Below, in pieces: positions 3,015 to 28,026 of a stretch of DNA of 41,981 nt. Both the position numbers and the translations under genes were made by a program. The stretch comes from Amanita rubescens (Eukaryota; Basidiomycota; Agaricomycetes; Agaricales; Amanitaceae): the NCBI GenBank assembly GCA_015039365.1, contig WION01000458.1, positions 1 to 41,981 on the forward strand, given 5' to 3'. The notes under the pieces are model-generated. The model was not told the origin of the DNA. It made no database searches and saw only the letters and a program-made list of their open reading frames with translations. How positions within the stretch are numbered: the stretch's first letter is position 1; the number at the start of each line of letters is the position of its first letter.

Positions 3015-5556
3015 ATGAGCGACTTCCAATCCAACAGATCCTTTACTCCTTCCGATTCGCTCCATCCTTACCGCAACGTCGTACTTCCACCGTCCTTGAT
3101 GCCGGATTTCATTACACTTTGGTGTCTTGTTGGCGACGATCCTCCATTTCAGGTATCCGTACATCGCGACGTCAAGGTCGACTTTTTGAAGAAGGCTATA
3201 AAGGCGGAAACATATCTTCCTGGTATCAATGCCTCCACTCTAGTACTTTGGATGGCGAGGGCATTCTGCAGGCTAACGCAAACAGCTGACTGACTCTATC
3301 TTGCCAGCTAAATGATCCAGAACCTGTGGATCCAGAAGATACCCTCATGCAGCGTATTAGGTCGAGAGGCGATGTGGCGACGTTCGCAAAGCGGTTGCCC
3401 GCTACACAAACCATGTCGGCGCTCTTTCCGGACCGGGACCCTCTCGACAACCATGTCCATGTTCTGGTGCGCCTTCCCTCCACAGGTGAGCCCATCGCTG
3501 TCGTGTCATTTGTCCATCATTAATCAAAACTCCGTTCGCAATGCTCTCATCTTATTAGGACCATCCTGGCTGGTTGAAATTCATAATGAACTGTGGGGAA
3601 AGCGTGATTTTTTTGGCAAGATTTTTCGTACCGCAACCCTGACCAAAGGTGACTTCACCGAACTTCAATGTCACCTGGACGCACTGAATCCGAAACGCAA
3701 CTCTGATGAATATGAGGCGGAGGATGTTCTTGCCACGAAATCCGCATTCTTACGCGAGAGGAGCACTGGTCTTGACCTAGACCTTGGTGATGGCCTAGTC
3801 CCCCGTTTAGATGCCTCCCAGCCCCCATCTGATAATGTCCTCGACGACGACGTTGTGGATGACGATGTTGTAGACTGCGATGTTGTGGACGATGATGTTG
3901 TGGACGACGATATTGTAGACGACGACGACGACGACGCTGCCATGGTCATTGATTCCGACCACTGCTCAGGCGACACTCATCTTCCAAACGAAGCCACGGG
4001 GATTTTCCCCTACACCATTCGGTATGTGGACCTGACTGTCCTCCAGTCGAAGAAGAAGCTTCGCGTGCCACGGTTGATGCTCTTCCGAAACGAGTGGAAT
4101 ACCATGATAGACATCTTTAACAAGAGGAAAAAGGGCAAGAATGGAAGTGCCCTCTTCTCAGGTCAGCCGGGTATCGGTGAGCACCATTATTGGTATCTGA
4201 CTGCCACTTCCAACCAACAAACCAGGGAAAACATGCATGTTGTATTCCATCCTCATTCTTTGCATCATTCTTGCCCAGCCAATCGTGTTTCAGGATGTGT
4301 CTGGCAAGGTCTTCATTATTGGTAATACGGTGCTCCCAGAGGGCATGGCACCGGGAGTATCGGCCGACGCCGACGACGTTCTTGCACTCGTCGATGCCGA
4401 CGATAAAGTCTATCAACCTAATGAATATCTCTTTTGTCATGACGAATATCGCATACTGCTAACGTCTTCGCCAAAAAAGAGGAAAGACCGACGGTGGCTT
4501 ACCCAAAGAGTTAACGATCAGCATGCGATGTTTATGATGGAGCCATGGTCGCGAGAAGAACTTGTTGTTGCATCGTTCGTGCATTCTGCTTGATTAATTC
4601 GCCTGCTTATGATTTATAGGTTGTTCCTGCAAAGCAACGACATCACTCTCAAGCGACTTCAGGAAGCTTCCCGTATTTGCGGGAACATACCTCGTGAATG
4701 TTTCGCAGCGGCAGTATCCTCTCGTGCTCTTGACGATACCAAAGCGAAGATCAGGAAAGCGATTGAGCAGACTAAGGAGTTGTCTGATACTATCATCACG
4801 ATGACGGTGGATGGTGGCACAGTGATCCATCGCGTATTCCAAATACGCCCATTGTCCAAGCATCGGTTGTGGAACAAGTGTGCCGTGGAACCAGTTTCGG
4901 ACTGGGCTTTCTCGGAGATGATGGTTGTCCTGGACCAACGAAGGGTGGGTTCTGCATACGATTTTTACTGTGCCATCAAAGCGTGCCGTGAATCTGCTAC
5001 ACTCGTTGGAAAGACATTTGAATGTCACCTTCACAAATTCCTGAAAACTTCTTCCCGGACCTTTACTATTCAGTCTCTCGATAAACGCTCCACTACTCAT
5101 AACATTCGCTTCACTCCCAACACAAAACAATTCGGAGACATGAAATGTTTCACAGGCGAATTAGCATTGTCCGTCCAGAATAAAACATCATGCTACCTCC
5201 AGCCGCTCTCTCCTGTCTTTCCACCTTTCGACTCTTTCCTGTATCAACCCGATATTTCCCAATTCTCGCCTCTTGTCGCTTTGCAGGCAACTACAGCTGC
5301 CGACCATCCTATAAAGCTTAAAGGTTTGGAGGATGTTCAAACGTCACTCAAGCCTAAAGTCTCTGGGATGAAAGATCTTCGACCAACAACAAAAAGAAAA
5401 ATGATCATTCTTTTTGTTGTCCCGGACACGTTGGGGGTGCCTTTTGCAAAGCAGACAATTGAGGGCGCAAAGAAGGGTGCACAAACACTTTGGTATGGGA
5501 AGACTGATCAGTACATTCTTGCGCTATCAGAAGCGGAGGTGTTCGGGGCAAAATAG
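3015..5556 (+). CDS. Crinkler-like (CRN) protein: ubiquitin-like header, P-loop NTPase, nuclease-like tail
   Basis: Crinklers are modular proteins in which an N-terminal ubiquitin-like header is followed by an NTPase and a nuclease-type domain. They are known as host-directed effectors in oomycetes and some fungi. Here the header is ITLWCLVGDDPPFQVSVHRD followed by VDFLKKAIKAE. Next comes a linker with a DDVVD repeat, then a P-loop GQPGIGKT assembled across an intron (donor about 4177, acceptor about 4227). The C-terminal part has 'FDSFLYQ..' and 'VALQATTAADHPIKLKGL', in the position of the restriction-endonuclease-like core. It ends 'ILFVVPDTLGVPF..TDQYILAL', the usual Crinkler tail. About five exons. 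The first intron (near 3255-3307) lacks an obvious GT donor. I saw no stop or frameshift. Role in this fungus is unknown: it could be effector, self/non-self or defence related. Confidence 0.82.
3842..3938 (+). repeat. In-frame acidic DDVVD coding repeat
   Basis: A degenerate 15-nt repeat (GATGATGTTGTGGAC-like) occurs about five times and then runs into a GAC tract. It encodes alternating Val-Val/Ile-Val and Asp blocks in the Crinkler-like protein, between header and NTPase. Codon variation between units (GAC/GAT, GTT/GTG/GTA) shows the units are not freshly duplicated. One Cys interrupts an Asp position. Confidence 0.85.
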
Positions 5557-10432: not shown

Positions 10433-12057
10433 ATGCCAAACACAAAGTTATCATTTCTCTCTCATCAAGTTCTCCCCCAGCCCAGGCTGCCCAGGATCAC
10501 TCTCATACCATCCCACAGTCAAACACCCCACTGCCAGTGCTTGCAGATAGTGCACTTCCATCAAGTAAACCAATATGATATCTTCACATTATCTGATTAT
10601 CTGACAGATACAACCAGATACAGAGGAGACACATATTAAATTTCTCAGGGAGCAATACCTATGCCTGCACTTTCGCATCCTTATCATTGGAAGGGCCAAT
10701 TCAGGAAGGACAACTATCATGGAGAAGGTTTGTGGTGTACTAGCAACAGGGACAAGGCCCATCATATATAAGAAGGATGGTAGTACATCATTTAACATGG
10801 TGAGTCAGATAAGGATGTATGCATGTACCCCCATTCACATGTAATAATAACAGGGAGTATCTGATATTGAAGAAGAGATTACATACCCTGGGAGTAACTT
10901 CATCTTCCATGCCCCTAGTATGGGTTTGAATCTGGTTCAACTGAGGAATTGGGAATTGTCTGGAAGTTCATTGAAAGGAGGTCTGCAGAAACTGAGCTGA
11001 AGAATCAGCTGCATGCAATTTGGTACTTTGTGTTATTCCTTTACATTACTGAAGGCTGATCAAGCCTCTAGGTACTGTATACCCATGGATGGCCCCCGTT
11101 CCATTCTACATTCAGAACTTGAATTCTTCAATAAAGGGACAGGCAGAGGTAAGTCCTGCTGATTTCATATCTCATCTTGTTGGTTTTGGAGAGATTATTC
11201 ATTGTTACTGCCTTTCCATTGACCAAATTGCCAAATTGCCACAGGATCTACTAATAGTAATCTACAGCACACTGACTAGTAAATATTTCATTCACAGTTC
11301 CATTGGTGGTTATGTTCACCAAATTTGATTATCAAATAATCAGGGAATTTGCAACTTGACTGACTTAAATGATGAAGATAAATGGGAGAGAGCCAGGGAA
11401 ATTGCTGACATCACTTTTCAGAAAGTTCATCTTCCTAAAGTTTTGAATACCAAATATCCTCCCAAGTTATGTGTGAGATTGGAAGGTGAGAATGGTGAAC
11501 ATTTATTTCTCCAAAGTGAAAAAGAAATCCTGCTTTATAGATGTGGATATGCCAAAGAAGAATTGCCCTGAATTAACTCAGATAATTGCTGATGCAATTG
11601 ATGATACCACTATACATCAACTTTTTGTTTCAACACAGATGAATAATCTGGATCTTTCAGTTAAATCTGCACTTCAGTGAGGGTCACATTCAAAATGTCA
11701 TTTACTAACATTGACATTGTTCAGACATGTTCTGAAACATAAACACTGGACATGGGATGATGTCATTCTCATAGTTCTCTCAAAATTTCCACATTTTGGG
11801 TATGCACTTTCATCAAACTGCACATAAGCATAGGATAAATCAACTGTCAACAGGTGGACAGGGAGGTAGGTGGCCTTCATATGGAATGATATGTGGATGA
11901 CTGCAAAAAGTTCATCAGGAGGTAAGTAACACTCCACTGCATTCACATGAAACCAAGATTAGTCATGCTTCAGATGGCCAAAAAACAACTGAGTGAAACA
12001 CAGGTTAGTTGTCACCACATTATTATTGGCAGGATCTGGTGCTATTGATATCAGTGG
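10433..12057 (+). CDS. Mushroom-type G-domain (AIG1/TRAFAC-like) GTPase, with two frame breaks
   Basis: A P-loop GTPase of a family expanded in mushrooms; role unknown. Exon 1 (10,433-10,564) carries a Pro/Ser/His-rich N-terminus. Exon 2 (10,608-10,799) has LHFRILIIGRANSGRTTIMEKVC, where the P-loop Lys of GxxxxGK(S/T) is Arg. Later parts are DIEEEITYPGSNFIFH, GSTEELGIVWKFIERRS, KNQLHAIWYCIPMD, the guanine-specificity motif TKFD after VPLVVMF, LPKVLNTKYPPKLCVRLE, LTQIIADAIDD, HQLFVSTQMNNLDLSVKSAL, and KHKHWTWDDVILIVLSKFPHF. Two one-base frame slips are needed, near 10,925 (TTT) and 11,356 (TT). The usual Asp of the DxxG motif is not visible ('FHAPSMGFE'). From about 11,854 the exons become very short (12 nt, then GAG at 11,919-11,921) and run into the micro-exon array. 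It may be a decayed gene or one affected by sequencing errors. Confidence 0.68.
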
Positions 12058-14518
12058 GTAAGTGAAATTGACCTTGCATATGTACTAGATCTGATATATT
12101 GTCATGACAATAGTTTGTGAGTAATGCTTCCATTTGTGATCAGTAATCTTGCTCCATAATATACAGGAAGTGAGTGATATCCAAATTCATTGCAGTTTTT
12201 GGTAAATTATCCCATTGTGTATTATATAACCAACAGCAAGTGAGTGATCTATTATGGTGATCAGATTTGTTAATTCAGTTTCCTGTGGATAGGGAGTGAG
12301 TGATACGACACTGCCTTGGCACGCCACATCTAACCTGTTTAAAGAAAGTAAGCAGCATCGAAGTTTATGAATCAGACATGACTCAATGAACAATAGAAAG
12401 TTGGTGACATATTGTTATCTGAAAGAGAGCTTCAACAAATTTTATTCAATTAATAACAGGAAGCAAGTGGCATTTCATTTCTATCCCCTTATGAACATTA
12501 CATCTTATCCTAAAATAATAGACAGTAAATATTTCTCATTTTCAAAGCCTAGGCTTGACCAACTATTGCAAAACAAACAGGATGTATGTGATACTTTGTG
12601 AGATGTGAATCCATGATGAATATGAAATGCTATGGCAAAAGAGAGTCAGTGACATTCTTTTTTTTTTCCAACTTGTTATGCTACATATGTAACTCCATTC
12701 TAAAAGGAAGTGAGTGGTGCTGGCCACTCTGCTTCAAGACAATTTGGACATTCCTTTGTTTTACAGATTGTGAGTGATATTGCAAGTTTTGTGGAATGCA
12801 GTGGGATCACAACAAACATAGAAGGTTAGCAGCATGCCACATTGGTTCAGTGGTTCAAAAGACAGTTATCAAAATTATTGCCTATTGCCAACAGTGTGTG
12901 AGTACTACATTGCAAACATTTCTGAAAAGTTGTTCTATCTATATTTTCCCTATGACTGATAGGATGTGAGTGACATTGAAGATTCTTGTGGAAGGCAGGC
13001 TCATCACATCTTTTCCTATAACTTCACTAGGAAGTGGGTGACATTCAATGCACAATTTATGAAAGGCAATCTCATCCTAGTATGACCAACAGGGAGTGAG
13101 TGCTAGACATTGCACATGTTGAGGAAGGCAGTCTCATTACATCTTTTCCTATGACCAACAGTTTGTGAGTAACATTATACATTTTGTAAAAGACAGTTTC
13201 ATCACTTCTTTTCCTATGACCCACAGGGAGCAGTGAGTGACATTGCACATTTTATGAAGACAGTCTCATTATCATACTTCCTTTCCCATGACCATTGACA
13301 AACAGTTTGTGAGTGACAAGTTGCACATTTTTGAAAGGCAGTCTCATGGCATCTTCAATTCCTGTGACCAACAGGAAGTGAGGGACACATTCAAGTGCAT
13401 GAAGTTGTGAATGGCAGTCTCATCACATCTTTTCTATGACCAACAGCTTGTGAGTGACATTGGACATGTTGTGACAGGCAGTCTCATCACATCTTTTCCA
13501 ACTATGACCAACAGCTTGTGAGTGACATTGACTCAACAGTTTGTGAGAGGCAGTTTCATTGAATCTTTTCCTATGACCTACAGTTTGTGAGTTTGCACAT
13601 TTGGTGGAAGGCAGTTGGCACATTATCACATCTTTTCCTCTGACCCAGGCTGTGAGTGACATTGCACATTTTGTGAAATGCAGTCTACATCCTTTCCTGT
13701 GACCAACAGTTTGTGAGTGACATTGCACATTTTGTGAAAGGCACTCTCATCACATCTTTTGTCTCTGATGGACAGGGAGTGAGTGACATTCATTTTGAGA
13801 AAGGCACTCTATCATATCTTTTCCTGTGACAAACAGGGAGTGAGTTATACTGCACATTTTGTGAAAGGCAGTCTCATCACATCTTTTCCTATACCAACAG
13901 CAGGTGAGTGACATTCCACATTTCTGAAATGCAGTCTCATCACATCTTTTCCTATAACCAACAGCGAGTGAGTGACATTGCACATAAGTTCATAAGATGC
14001 AGTCTCATCACATCTTTTCCTATGATGAACAGTTTGTGAGTGATGACATTGCACACTTTGAGAAAGGCAGTCCCATTGCATCTTTTCCTATGACTGACAG
14101 CTTGTGAGTGACATTGCATATTTTTGTGAAAGGGTGTTTCATCCTATCTTTTCCTACTATGACCAACAGCAAGTGAGCAACATTGTGCATTGTTGTGAAA
14201 CAGTCTGATCACATCTTATCCTATGAACAACAGCGAGTATGTGATATTATTACACACTGTTGTGGAACAGTGTCACATCTTTTCCCATGACCAACAGAAA
14301 GTGAGTGGCATTTTGTGAACACTTCCAAAAGGTAGTCTCATCATGTCCTACATATGTACTGTACTATATCAGGAAGTGAGCACATAGTCTCACCTTTTCT
14401 ATTTCTTTGCCTTACATTATCATTGTCAATAGATTGTAAGATTCTATATCAGCTTACCCAATCCCAGGGCCTCACATGATTGTCCTCTGACTTACATCAT
14501 GATTTCTTTGATTTTCAG
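12055..14518 (+). repeat. Array of about 37 intron-like units separated by 3-nt mini-exons
   Basis: Each unit starts with a donor-like hexamer (mostly GTGAGT; also GTAAGC, GTATGT, GTCAGT, GTTAGC, GTGGGT and one GCAAGT at 12,463) and ends in AG, usually ACCAACAG after a TCCTATGAC branch-like motif. Units are 49-73 nt. The interval between AG and the next donor is exactly 3 nt in 37 of 38 cases. Examples: TGG 12,055; TTT 12,114; GAA 12,167; CAA 12,237; GGA 12,293; AAA 12,345; GAA 12,460; ACA 12,522; GAT 12,581; AGA 12,642; ATT 12,767; AAG 12,822; TGT 12,895; CTT 13,447; GCT 13,649; CAG 13,901; CGA 13,965; CAA 14,170; AAA 14,298; ATT 14,433. The exception is a 6-nt GGAGCA at 13,227-13,232. Units from about 12,966 on share one body; earlier ones share only ends and spacing. 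The last unit (14,436-14,518) runs straight into another GTGAGT. Similar AG-triplet-GT sites occur at 14,572-14,574 (TGT) and 14,746-14,748 (TTT). The pattern is seen directly; splicing is inferred. Confidence 0.85.
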
Positions 14519-14852
14519 GTGAGTGAAACTGACTTATGAAACATCAAATTTCATATCAGCCCACATGCTAGTGTGTATGTCTGATGGTACATTGAAGGAT
14601 TTACTCTTTTTTATGATTAGCATGCACTTCTTTCTATGTTTGGAGGTCAACAAAAGAACTTTTTAGTTGATGTATGTATGGTTTGTTTTTCTTGTAATTT
14701 AATACTGACACTATTGCAATAAGCCTACTTCTTGCCAAATTTTAGTTTGTAAATCTTTCCACTTCATTTGCTCTATTTATGCTGAAACTCTCAAGCAATT
14801 ATTTTCATTGCCAAGTTATCATTTTGGATCAACAAACCATTTCTTCCATCAG

Positions 14853-16527
14853 TCACGGAAGCTTTGGATCAATTCAAGCACAAAGGCTTTGTTGAGAAGC
14901 TGAAGACTGACATTACACCTACTACTCTTGTGCATTCTGGTTATCAAGATTTGGTCCAATTCCTCTACAAGCAGGTGACTAACATTGATGGTGTGTGCCT
15001 TACCTACTCATACACCACATATGAACAATTCATGGCACAGCAAGTTTCCATTTGCCTTGGGACCAGGAGGAAAAAAATGGTGACAATGCACCCATGGAAG
15101 CATTGCTTGAAATCATCCTTAAGGTATTCAAGTTGTACTTCCCAAGCATCAGTGTACCACAGAGTCTAACTCACAACCACTAGTCAACAGCACGTGGTGG
15201 TTCAATGGCTAAAACATCTGCCCATGATTTTATGGGTGAATTGTTGCATCTATCTGAATATTCTGTCTCAGCATCTGAACTGAGCACCTTAAACATTGAG
15301 TCATTGCTTGATTTTATTCTCCATGTATGTATGTATACACTCTTTTGTTAGTCTATGTGCAATATTTTCCCTTTAGTCACTCTGCCATGACAAATTACAC
15401 ATTCAGAGTGAAAATCAAAAGGCTAGGAGGCTCATGCTTGAACTGGTGTCCAAGAAAAATATCATCCCAAAATCTCTTTTTGTGACAGATGTCAAAACTG
15501 CCAAGATGACAGTGATTGGTATTGGAGGCTTTGGGCGTGTTTTCAAGGGTGCATACAAAGGATTGCCAGTAGCATTGAAAGTGGTGGACAGGGGCCATAC
15601 CAATGTTAGTGCTTTTCTAAGTTTTTATTTTTTAACAATTCTGAAAAGTTTAATAAGAACTCACTTAGTAAAGACTTTTGCCAGGAGGCTCTAACATGGA
15701 AATCACTCTCACACCATTTTATCCTTCCTCTCTTAGGGATATTTGAGGAGGGATCACAGCTCTTTCTCGTGTCACCGTTCATGGCAAATGGGACATTGAC
15801 TGGATGGAGAAAGACTCAGCAGGAGCCAATCAAGATTAATGAGATCCACAGAGTGGTGGGACTCCTGCACGTACTTTGTGATGAATTTGCTAACATCTTC
15901 TACATAGATGCTAGAGGTAGCAGAAGGTGTGAAGTATCTTCACTCAGAAGGAATTGTACATGGTGACTTGCATGGGGTAAGGATTCCAATATCTTTGTGC
16001 CTCCCAAATCAATTCATCACATTATTTACCAGCATAATGTCCTCCTTAATTCTGAATTCCATTGCCAAATCACTGATTTTGGATCAACTCGACATTTCGA
16101 AGCCATTGTTACACGATCTACAACAGCATTTGCTATCAATTTTGTTGCACCCGAACTCTTTGGCATGTGCACCACGTGTGGTCTGTTCGACTGTGATGGA
16201 TGTCAGAGAGATCAGGCTTTACTGAAAAGAAGCAAAACAATGGCAACAGACGTTTATGCTTTCGGTTGCCTTTATTATGCAGTGTGTATAGATTTTTGCT
16301 TGATTGGTGCATTGATCCAAGACCTTAAACAGACATTCTTTGGTTCCGTTCCTTTTCATGACAAGACCGACATTCAAATTCTTCGACTAGTCACAAATGG
16401 AAAGCGCCCGGATCGATTAGAAAGTCCGAGAATGGAAGACGATACCTGGCATCTCATTCAGAGATGTTGGGAGTCCATTCCTTCTAAACGCTCGACGATA
16501 AAGGACATTGCGGCGGCATTGGCTTGA
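14853..16527 (+). CDS. TKL-like Ser/Thr protein kinase with unknown N-terminal domain
   Basis: The N-terminal exon encodes TEALDQFKHKGFVEKLKTD, then TTLVHSGYQDLVQFLYKQV and SYTTYEQFMAQ, a domain I cannot name. It breaks at the A7 run 15,071-15,077, where one more A would continue NGDNAPMEALLEIILK. Later exons give HDFMGELLHLSEYSVSASEL and LMLELVSKKNIIPKSLFVTD. The kinase domain follows: glycine loop GIGGFGRVFKG, VALKVV with the ATP-binding Lys, YLHSEGIVHGDLHG (HGD in place of HRD), ITDFGSTRH with intact DFG, FVAPELFG, TDVYAFGCLYYA, and WHLIQRCWESIPSKRSTIKDI near the end. The kinase core looks catalytically complete. Introns are short; for example, 16,283-16,331 joins LYYA to TFFGSVPFHD. It lies directly after the GTPase and intron array on the same strand with no clear separate start. 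It may therefore be the 3' part of one long gene. Confidence 0.75.
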
Positions 16528-23492: not shown

Positions 23493-24376
23493 ATGGCCCA
23501 CCCTACCTCTCGCCTCCACCGAAAAAGGACGTGATTCGGTGTTATACGAGTCATTGCTGGAAAGTCAAGCTACGAACGAAAACCATCCAGACCTGGGCGA
23601 TATTATAAGAGACATCACCATTGGTTTCGGCAGATGGCCTTACTGTACCATTTGCGCTAACCGCTGGCTTGTCTAGTCTCGGCTCTTCCAAACATTGTCA
23701 TAACTGTGGCCTGGCAGAGCTGTTAGTGGTGCCATCTCGATGGGACTAGGGGCTACCTCGCCGCGGTGACGGAGCGCGATCGTTACCTCAGTGAAGAAAA
23801 GCGTCAGAGGGAGCAGGGTGCTTACGAGACCTGACGCAAAGAAGATTTACGACCTATTTGCGCAATACGGAATAAGCAAAGAAGCAAGCGGGGCTATCGT
23901 AGATGAGCTAAGTAGAGATGACGATAGTTGGGTCAAGGTACGTTCTAATAAGTGGCTCTAATCCGTGCATAGCTGACGCGCATCTGAAAAAGTTCATGAT
24001 GGATTTTGAGCTTAAACTTGAGAAGCCTAACGTCTCCAGGGCATGGATCTCTGCAGGTACAATGGGTCTTTCTTACTTTATTGGTGTGTAATTTATCTCT
24101 CGCATTTGAAATTGTAAGAGTTACTGATGATGTTATGAAGGTGGTCTCCTACCTATGATACCCTACTTCGTCATAGACAATGTTACCCACGCATTATTCG
24201 TTTCAATTGCCGTTACCTTCATAGTACTGGTAGCGTTCGGCTTCGTCAAAAACTATGTCACGATTAAAACGAAGCGCGCTGGCTTCTATGGCGCGGTGCA
24301 GACAGTAATTGTCGGCGCGCTGGCTGCAGGGACGAGCTACGCGATCGTACGAGGCATTAATCATAGCAATGCCTAG
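23493..24376 (+). pseudogene. Decayed Ccc1/VIT1-type vacuolar iron transporter (copy 1)
   Basis: Compared with the right-hand copy, this one has several indels in the first exon. The frame slips just after the ATG. There is an extra base at 'ATTGGTTTCGGCAG' near 23,622, and losses near 23,700 (CTGTGGCC), 23,722 (CTGTTAGTGG) and 23,751 (GGGGCTACC). Recognisable pieces remain: TEKGRDS, DIIRDITIGF, EEKRQREQ, and an intact 3' part in one frame. That part spans KFMMDFELKLEKPNVSRAWIS, an intron near 24,089-24,140, GGLLPMIPYF and VAFGFVKNYVTIKTKRAGF, ending GINHSNA. The 3' half is thus better preserved than the 5' half. Some slips could be sequence errors, but the number and the insertion favour a true pseudogene. 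Confidence 0.72.
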
Positions 24377-27130: not shown

Positions 27131-28026
27131 ATGGCTTCCCTACCTCTCTCCTCTGCAGAAAAAGGACAAGACTCATCAAGCTCACTGCTAAAAAGTCACA
27201 TTGCTGGTGAAAGCCATTCAAACGCAGCCGACATTATACGCGACGCCATCATTGGCTTCGCAGATGGCCTCACTGTACCATTCGCGCTCACGGCTGGCCT
27301 GTCCAGCCTTGGTTCTTCCAAGCTTGTCATAACTGGTGGCCTAGCAGAGCTGTTCAGCGGCGCCATTTCGATGGGGCTGGGGGCTTACCTCGCTGCGGTG
27401 ACAGACCGAGACCGTTACATAAGTGAAGAGAAGCGCGAAAGGGAGGAAGTGGCAACGAAACCCGAGGCAGAGAAGCAGGAGATCCACGACATATTTTCTC
27501 AGTACGGAATAAGCAAAGATGCAAGCCAGGCTGTTGTAGATGACTTGGTTAAAAATGAAGACCATTGGGTTCGGGTATGTTCTGAATATGTGGCTCTGGA
27601 CAGTGTATAGCTGACACAACGCATTTCCAAATAAGTTCATGATGGACTTTGAACTTAAACTTGAGAAGCCCAATGTTTCCGAGCGTGGATTTCCGCAGGT
27701 ACAATGGGACTTTCTTACTTTATTGGTCGGTGCCCAACTTGACCCGTCATCTGAAACTATACATGAGGTGCTAATGATATTATTAAGGCGGTCTCCTACC
27801 TATGATCCCTTATTTCGCCATAAACAACGTTACCCGCGCCTTGTTTGTCTCAATCGCAATTACTTTCGTTGTTCTGGTAGCTTTCGGCTTCGTCAAAAAT
27901 TATGTCACGATCAAAACAAAACGTGCTGGCTTCTATGGTGCAGTCCAAACGGTGATTGTCGGTGCACTGGCCGCAGGGACGAGCTACGGAATCGTACGAG
28001 GCATTAATCATAGCAATATCTCGTAA
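27131..28026 (+). CDS. Ccc1/VIT1-type vacuolar iron (Fe/Mn) transporter (copy 2)
   Basis: VIT1/Ccc1 proteins move ferrous iron or manganese into the vacuole. Start MASLPLSSAEKG at 27,131. Helix 1 is IIGFADGLTVPFALTAGLSS and helix 2 is TGGLAELFSGAISMGLGAYL. The cytosolic metal-binding region has many Glu (EEKREREEVATKPEAEKQE), then YGISKDASQAVVDDLV. After a GTATGT intron comes FMMDFELKLEKPN. After a second intron (about 27,727-27,786) come GGLLPMIPYFAINNVT, ALFVSIAITFVVLVAFGFVK and KTKRAGFYGAVQTVIVGALA, ending GINHSNIS. Relative to copy 1, one base is missing at the C pair 27,679-27,680. Adding one C restores VSRAWISAG, so error or recent mutation is possible. Family membership is certain. Confidence 0.88.

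Follow-up and report, generated by a model that had tools for sequence, protein, structure and literature searches.

A chain of putative single-codon exons downstream of GTPase-like exons

The window analysed here, a stretch of 41,981 nt, is contig C394 of the 75.7-Mb Amanita rubescens assembly. On its forward strand, which carries the GTPase-like, array and kinase-like features described below, a set of GTPase-like exons (10605..11799) is followed at 12055..14435 by an array of 37 single-codon exons and one 6-nt exon, separated by 37 introns of 49-73 nt and giving the predicted peptide WFEQGKKETDREIKCDEGFGAFELLFAFGGQRFLQRKEI. From sequence comparisons, we consider it very likely that these one-codon units are spliced in succession to form a variable, codon-aligned segment of a GTPase-like protein.

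All 38 exons of the array were checked individually by coordinate, letter by letter. AG directly precedes every one of them, and GT follows 37; the remaining exon, at 12,460-12,462, adjoins the single GC donor of the array, GCAAGT. The introns have a mean length of 61.2 nt, and their lengths leave remainders of 0, 1 and 2 after division by three in 10, 13 and 14 cases, respectively. The sole 6-nt exon, GGAGCA (13227..13232), is present in the copies on contigs C29 and C33 too, and the joined exons amount to 117 nt, starting with TGGTTTGAACAAGGA. Every unit has a donor, an acceptor and an intron of viable length, the branch region being judged by eye only. Thus, the exon counts, unit lengths, GC donor and joined length reported in a first-pass annotation of this DNA were borne out exon by exon.

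Within the window, a preference for 3-nt spacing is seen in this region alone. Within 12,001-14,450, an AG lies exactly 3 nt upstream of 24 of the 25 GTRAGT donors, and 6 nt upstream of the remaining one, while in the other 39.5 kb of the window the same holds for only 3 of 20 such donors on the forward strand and 1 of 19 on the reverse strand, with no preference for 3 nt. A chain search in which exon lengths from 1 to 12 nt were weighted equally recovered 37 introns in the array region, whereas in 60 first-order Markov resamples it averaged 3.75 introns and never exceeded 10. With the flanks included, the chain has 44 introns, and 38 of its 43 exons are 3 nt long. This length-neutral caller replaced an earlier one, tuned to homogenised repeats, which had recovered no more than 21 chained introns in the window.

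Two parts of the array can be distinguished. The first, with exons W F E Q G K K E T D R E I K (12055..12824), is conserved and matches two public proteins, P0002 and P0014, which are described below. In the second (13081..14238) the introns are still alike, as seen in three overlapping tandem-repeat rows with periods of 64, 68 and 127. All 21 distinct paralog rows selected by the TGG site retain TTT, and 20 of them retain GAA (GCA in C170), while the introns differ by insertions and deletions. The paralog alignment and the length-neutral search uphold the previous claim that the 3-nt spacing is retained by units with diverged intron bodies.

Recurrence across the A. rubescens genome

The genome was searched for two consecutive junctions (ACAG-NNN-GTRAGT, 40-70 nt, AG-NNN-GTRAGT), with the reversed pattern as control. 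We obtained 3,863 matches (2,095 and 1,768 on the two strands) against 0 and 2 in the control, counts that may cover both haplotypes, as C394 and C29 hold near-identical copies. Most of the roughly 100 matches listed form chains, and 58 chains open with TGG, TTT and then GAA or GCA, compared with none in the control. GTPase exon matches lie upstream of the arrays where positions were compared, for example C1:103950 before C1:105512-110236, and C3:22516(-) before C3:20727-19483. An initial genome pattern in which the branch-to-acceptor distance was fixed had no matches, versus 25 in its reversed control. Copies of the unit intron, among the matches listed out of 675, are clustered on 11 contigs.

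Nine arrays from the chain search comprise 484 introns of 43-110 nt, with a median of 62 nt, and 435 of their 475 called exons are 3 nt long. Exons of other lengths were sought with ACAG before both junctions, a pattern slightly stricter than the one that gave the 3,863 matches for 3 nt. All 46 resulting rows were inspected, three being ambiguous: 21 exons are of 6 nt, five of 9 nt, nine of 4 nt, eight of 2 nt and three of 1 nt, with none of 5, 7 or 8 nt.

Two loci with odd exon lengths deserve mention in their own right. On the reverse strand of C408, at about 20.0-22.5 kb, a second type of chain occurs, in which the homogenised intron is a different one (gtgagtttctgacttttctg...) and exons of 2 and 4 nt are present; it may be an independent or a decayed array. 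On the reverse strand of C749, at about 2.0-4.2 kb, a homogenised array has near-identical introns around exons of 1, 2 and 4 nt.

The triplets behave as codons

If the triplets were free of coding constraint, stop codons should occur among them at the frequency dictated by their base composition. Of the 3,863 first triplets from the genome search, 661 begin with T and 1,859 are NRA, from which about 318 TAA or TGA triplets are expected; only three TGA were observed, with no TAA or TAG, and with 32 TGG. Stops in register therefore fall short of expectation by a factor of about 100 (Poisson log10 p about -131, a value that is overstated because the units are related by descent). The three TGA triplets sit at C67:57187, C537:2866 and C557:79142, which are candidate decayed arrays.

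The avoidance is confined to one register. In the nine arrays, no stop was found among the 435 three-nt exons, versus 19.2 expected by column shuffling, whereas the two shifted frames, with exons of other lengths dropped, have 49 stops versus 46.5 expected and 3 versus 6.5. Stop depletion as a by-product of overlap between donor and acceptor was rejected, since TAT, TGT and TGG, which would create GTATGT, GTGTGT and GTGGGT donors over the acceptor G, show no depletion (11, 3 and 7 seen versus 5.0, 0.8 and 1.5 expected). An ordinary coding tandem repeat on either strand was likewise rejected, first, because the homogenised unit of 65 bp is not divisible by three, and second, because six-frame translation of the C1 array gave no match to the public protein P0044.

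Outside the conserved first part of the chains the codons are hypervariable, and they vary within otherwise uniform repeats. In five homogenised arrays, restricted to units that combine a 62-nt intron with a 3-nt exon (43, 33, 28, 36 and 25 units), mean diversity per intron site is 0.0036-0.0283, versus 0.57-0.71 at the middle codon position. For instance, 38 units on C13 with one identical intron carry CTA (13), CAA (13), CGA (9) and CTT (3), and ten different triplets occur among 25 units with one intron on C254. This suggests either strong diversifying selection on the codons or homogenisation of the introns separately from the codons.

Public proteins carry the joined codons

A protein search with the GTPase model found 969 proteins, of which 120 were listed; 21 of these were read, and all 120 were scanned for sequence past the GTPase. 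One of them, P0044, a protein of 478 residues from a 1,486-nt JGI contig, has a post-GTPase stretch that matches the array at C1:31.0-34.2 kb. When the 47 single-codon exons of the C1 array are joined in register, 39 of 47 residues are identical to P0044, with one gap and a score of 210. By comparison, the shifted frames score 22 and 21, 2,000 shuffles reach at most 57, and six-frame translation of the genomic sequence reaches at most 36. Past the array stretch, P0044 continues with residues that correspond to the exons read by eye downstream of the array.

The joined peptide of the window also finds counterparts. Against P0002 it scores 74 (shifted frames 23 and 20; shuffle maximum 50), with 13 of the first 18 residues identical, and against P0014 it scores 65 (shifted frames 23 and 21; shuffle maximum 47). 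The GTPase part of P0044 and P0002 reads through without introns, and so does that of P0014 downstream of the P-loop exon, where its frame begins. From these intron-free reading frames we infer that the contigs encoding the three proteins are transcripts. In two further JGI proteins, P0048 and P0051, the flanks are alike and the middles differ where the array would lie, as hypervariable arrays would give.

Automatic annotation likely misses these arrays. Fifteen of the 120 proteins listed extend more than 25 residues past the GTPase end, and in the four named A. rubescens proteins among those 15 (P0043, P0074, P0083 and P0117) an array-like segment was not seen by eye.

Gene context and reading frame

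The GTPase-like exons include a P-loop, GRANSGRTT, in the exon starting at 10605, a TKFD motif, and a closing exon at 11725-11799 that ends ...LSKFPHF, the exon ends being judged by eye against paralogs. The Pfam family MMR_HSR1 falls just under its cutoff for the paralog model from C79 (19.5 versus 21.9 bits), and PF01926 is precomputed for some relatives. Three further predicted exons precede the array. First, a 12-nt exon, GTGGACAGGGAG (VDRE; 11854..11865), is given by aligned paralogs and the gene model, an AGG/AGA difference in C604 being synonymous in phase 0. Second, an extra single-codon exon, GAG (E; 11919..11921), is GTG in some paralogs. Third, a 30-nt exon (11974..12003) encodes MAKKQLSETQ in phase 0, and P0014 and P0002 have MANKQLSEAQ and TNEQLSETK, respectively, in the same place.

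Downstream of the array, three exons are predicted, each with an equivalent in P0044. The first, HALLSMFGGQQKNFLVD (14621..14671), is entered in phase 0 and was read by eye against C13, C254 and C604; its equivalent is PGLLSLFQATKFTEFSAT. The second, PTSCQILV plus one nucleotide (14724..14748), was also read by eye and corresponds to ATECQLVV. The third, IIFIAKLSFWINKPFLPSVTEALDQF... (14796..14990), belongs to an open reading frame (ORF) whose exon ends were set by eye, corresponds to IIIIAKLSFWIKNP...AFDQF, and has no Pfam match.

The first-pass annotation had the GTPase entering the array in phase 2, which our analysis overturns. Compared with its near-identical counterpart on C29, the window copy lacks one T in each of two homopolymers within the upstream GTPase exons (10605-11799), differences that are probably assembly errors or possibly mark a decayed allele, and in paralogs without this shortfall the exons upstream of the array close in phase 0 (...KFPHFW/VDRE/V or E/MANEQLSETQ/W/F/E/Q/G/K). 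Phase 2 had been reached through such a missing T and through the assignment of TGG to the end of a longer exon. In paralog rows chosen by the TGG site, the stretch before TGG differs in length, as an intron would, and for this reason we read TGG as a 3-nt exon itself. The resulting codon-aligned frame (WFEQGKKETDREIKCDEG...) is the one that matches proteins (74 versus 23 for P0002, with a shuffle maximum of 50), and the phase-2 frame (GLNKE...) was rejected, as it scores no higher than chance against public proteins. The caution that openness of a frame is by itself weak evidence was well placed.

Further downstream, protein kinase-like exons (15377..16527) are a candidate part of the same gene only: a 186-residue ORF at 15967-16527 matches PF07714 at 1.3e-13, and a 64-residue piece of the ORF from 15377 has no Pfam match. 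A Pfam scan of four pieces at E<=0.1 gave weak MMR_HSR1, Arf and Dynamin_N matches in addition to the kinase; neither NACHT nor NB-ARC accompanied by WD40, TPR or ANK was found in these four pieces, nor any repeats.

Elsewhere in the window, two near-identical membrane-protein-like ORFs (MIPYF...NVT.ALFVSIA...), at 24131-24376 and 27787-28026, indicate an apparent local duplication, and a 15-bp tandem repeat at 3843-3925, within the ORF at 3312-4325, encodes an acidic D/V repeat.

Alternative explanations

The first alternative to be weighed is that the exons are real but spliced combinatorially, with donors pairing with distant acceptors, such that each mRNA holds a different in-frame subset of codons. 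Donors and acceptors are each of one type and nearly all exons are 3 nt long, so skipping would stay in frame, and the different middles between similar flanks in P0048 and P0051 are what such splicing could produce. However, P0044 preserves the order of 47 consecutive single-codon exons, interrupted by a single gap, and P0048 and P0051 differ in their flanks as well, so that they look like paralogs rather than isoforms. We therefore view combinatorial splicing as possible but unlikely.

A second alternative concerns origin, and posits that a continuous coding segment was invaded between its codons by copies of one intron, making the codons old and the introns young. It would account for near-identical introns with different codons and for the uninterrupted match of the codon string in P0044, and introner-like elements are known in fungi (PMC4457414). 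On the other hand, insertion at arbitrary sites would not give an exact 3-nt spacing in one phase, and the unit introns listed cluster on 11 contigs instead of being scattered over genes. An origin by invasion thus appears rather improbable.

Third, the array might be a non-coding satellite of decayed intron copies within one large intron that is removed whole, its 3-nt spacing being inherited from the founding unit. The units are indeed tandem repeats; skipping of the whole array would keep the frame, as its total is divisible by three; and A. rubescens P0083 passes from the GTPase to the downstream part with no array-like segment seen by eye, the annotation skipping the array. A satellite should be free of coding constraint, and both the stop depletion and the protein matches contradict this. 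In addition, the codons vary amid homogenised introns, 3-nt exons survive where the intron bodies have diverged, and the codon string matches P0044, which disfavours a satellite if the P0044 contig is a transcript. Altogether, this explanation retains very little probability, and the earlier proposal of a chain of spliceosomal introns with single-codon exons, rather than a satellite, gains strong support from genomic recurrence, stop avoidance, near-fixed 3-nt spacing and public proteins, its detail of the frame being wrong. Finally, a tandem-repeat assembly artefact, suggested by the single-base homopolymer differences between the window and C29, which point to local sequence errors, and by the concentration of odd exon lengths in homogenised arrays, can practically be discarded, as it is refuted by recurrence in diverged, non-repetitive arrays with unique units, by 58 chain starts over dozens of contigs, and by the match in an independently held protein, P0044.

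Several observations weigh against successive splicing of one-codon units. At the level of the arrays, 20 of the 46 exons with lengths other than 3 nt break the frame; 17 of these 20 lie on C408, C749 and C13, three contigs possibly affected by decay or misassembly. The joined C1 peptide omits one exon, AGCT, to which the caller assigned a length of 4 nt, and the gap in the P0044 alignment falls precisely there. At the level of the proteins, P0044, P0002 and P0014 come from short JGI contigs of 1,446-1,903 nt, which may be intronless genomic copies; the database is silent on a transcript origin. Five of the seven proteins tested match the window peptide no better than shuffles, as expected for a variable segment, although this is no proof. 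Past its first 18 residues, the P0002 tail misfits the composition of the arrays, with a log-likelihood ratio of -15.1 nats (-6.3 for P0014), and the idea that the whole tail of P0002 is encoded by an array was considered and found unsupported by composition. Moreover, a protein search with the modelled array and downstream part of the window returned nothing at E<=0.001, and a search with the array region of P0044 returned only itself at E<=1.

A possible mechanism and its implications

If the one-codon units are spliced in succession, recognition would proceed by intron definition, each short intron, with its own donor, branch region and acceptor, being recognised as a unit. Removal of the introns would probably be sequential, because sites 3 nt apart can hardly be bound simultaneously. 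Each excision would leave the next donor abutting the growing exon, in a zipper that resembles recursive splicing. At the level of the genome, the arrays would lengthen and shorten by recombination between near-identical 65-bp units of intron plus codon, one amino acid at a time, while selection would maintain both codon diversity and freedom from stops.

It is tempting to speculate that the arrays are modular peptide generators, in which the 65-bp repeat consists of an intron plus a codon, and recombination between identical introns would add, remove or exchange individual residues in frame. In-frame skipping could multiply the variants further, and dozens of such genes would make up a hypervariable GTPase-based recognition repertoire, with some 40-70 introns spliced per transcript. 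We advance this model as a whole tentatively. Within the main reading, successive splicing of one-codon units, the most fragile element is that the variable segment might set recognition specificity in a large GTPase-like family, a role suggested by analogy with the het genes of Podospora, where homogenised repeats contain a few positively selected codons.

If confirmed, these arrays would have introns separating all neighbouring codons of a protein segment, with dozens of cases in each gene and thousands in the genome, challenging current ideas on the smallest possible exon and on the steric constraints between neighbouring splice sites. They would also represent a new path to protein diversity, in which the intron serves as the recombining repeat, with one codon as the variable letter. 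The array makes strictly sequential splicing directly testable, and similar genes may be hidden elsewhere.

Comparison with known systems

We know of no described gene with runs of single-codon exons. Within the open-access PubMed Central literature on microexons, intron arrays and their relatives, subscription papers and preprints being outside this scope, no description of arrays of single-codon exons was found, and the first-pass annotation likewise knew of no precedent.

Recursive splicing is the stepwise excision of adjoining introns, introner-like elements have multiplied across genes, and the WD40 repeat of Podospora spans about 42 amino acids. In the Podospora het/hnwd genes, WD repeats are homogenised by recombination, diversifying selection acts on four codon positions in each unit, and the repeats are unstable (PMC2873952). 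Homogenised repeats with hypervariable codons are likewise found in five of our arrays. The difference is that in Podospora the repeat is a coding WD40 repeat, whereas here it is an intron, with one codon as its only coding content. The arrays share with fungal introner-like elements the presence of many related spliceosomal introns in one genome (PMC4457414), but here these introns stand in tandem, 3 nt apart, within a single gene family. With stwintrons they share the stepwise excision of adjoining introns (PMC8469720); in a stwintron, however, one intron interrupts a splice element of the other, whereas the introns of the array are complete, with a codon between them, and thus fall outside that definition.

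Ultra-short exons can be spliced in, as illustrated by a 3-bp exon of Drosophila homothorax and a single-nucleotide exon in Arabidopsis (PMC7392893, PMC4674806). Those examples are apparently isolated cases, unlike the runs of dozens seen here. According to a 2024 abstract, functional microexons are undescribed in filamentous fungi (PMC11121469).

A further comparison is with the micro-exon genes of schistosomes, which have 10-20 exons per gene, mostly of 15 bp (6-81 bp in the body text of the source, 3-81 in its abstract), and introns of 0.1-5 kb (PMC10526429). In both systems consecutive tiny exons are mostly multiples of three, hard to annotate automatically, and give varied products; all 38 exons of the window array are 3 or 6 nt long. 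The long introns of schistosomes have no counterpart in the nine A. rubescens arrays, in which introns measure 43-110 nt, with a median of 62. Furthermore, the A. rubescens genes differ in having dozens of exons of exactly 3 nt, tandemly repeated introns of about 62 nt, and a GTPase-like upstream domain. Arrays of single-codon exons could constitute a new category, whereas a more cautious view would treat them as an extreme variant of micro-exon genes.

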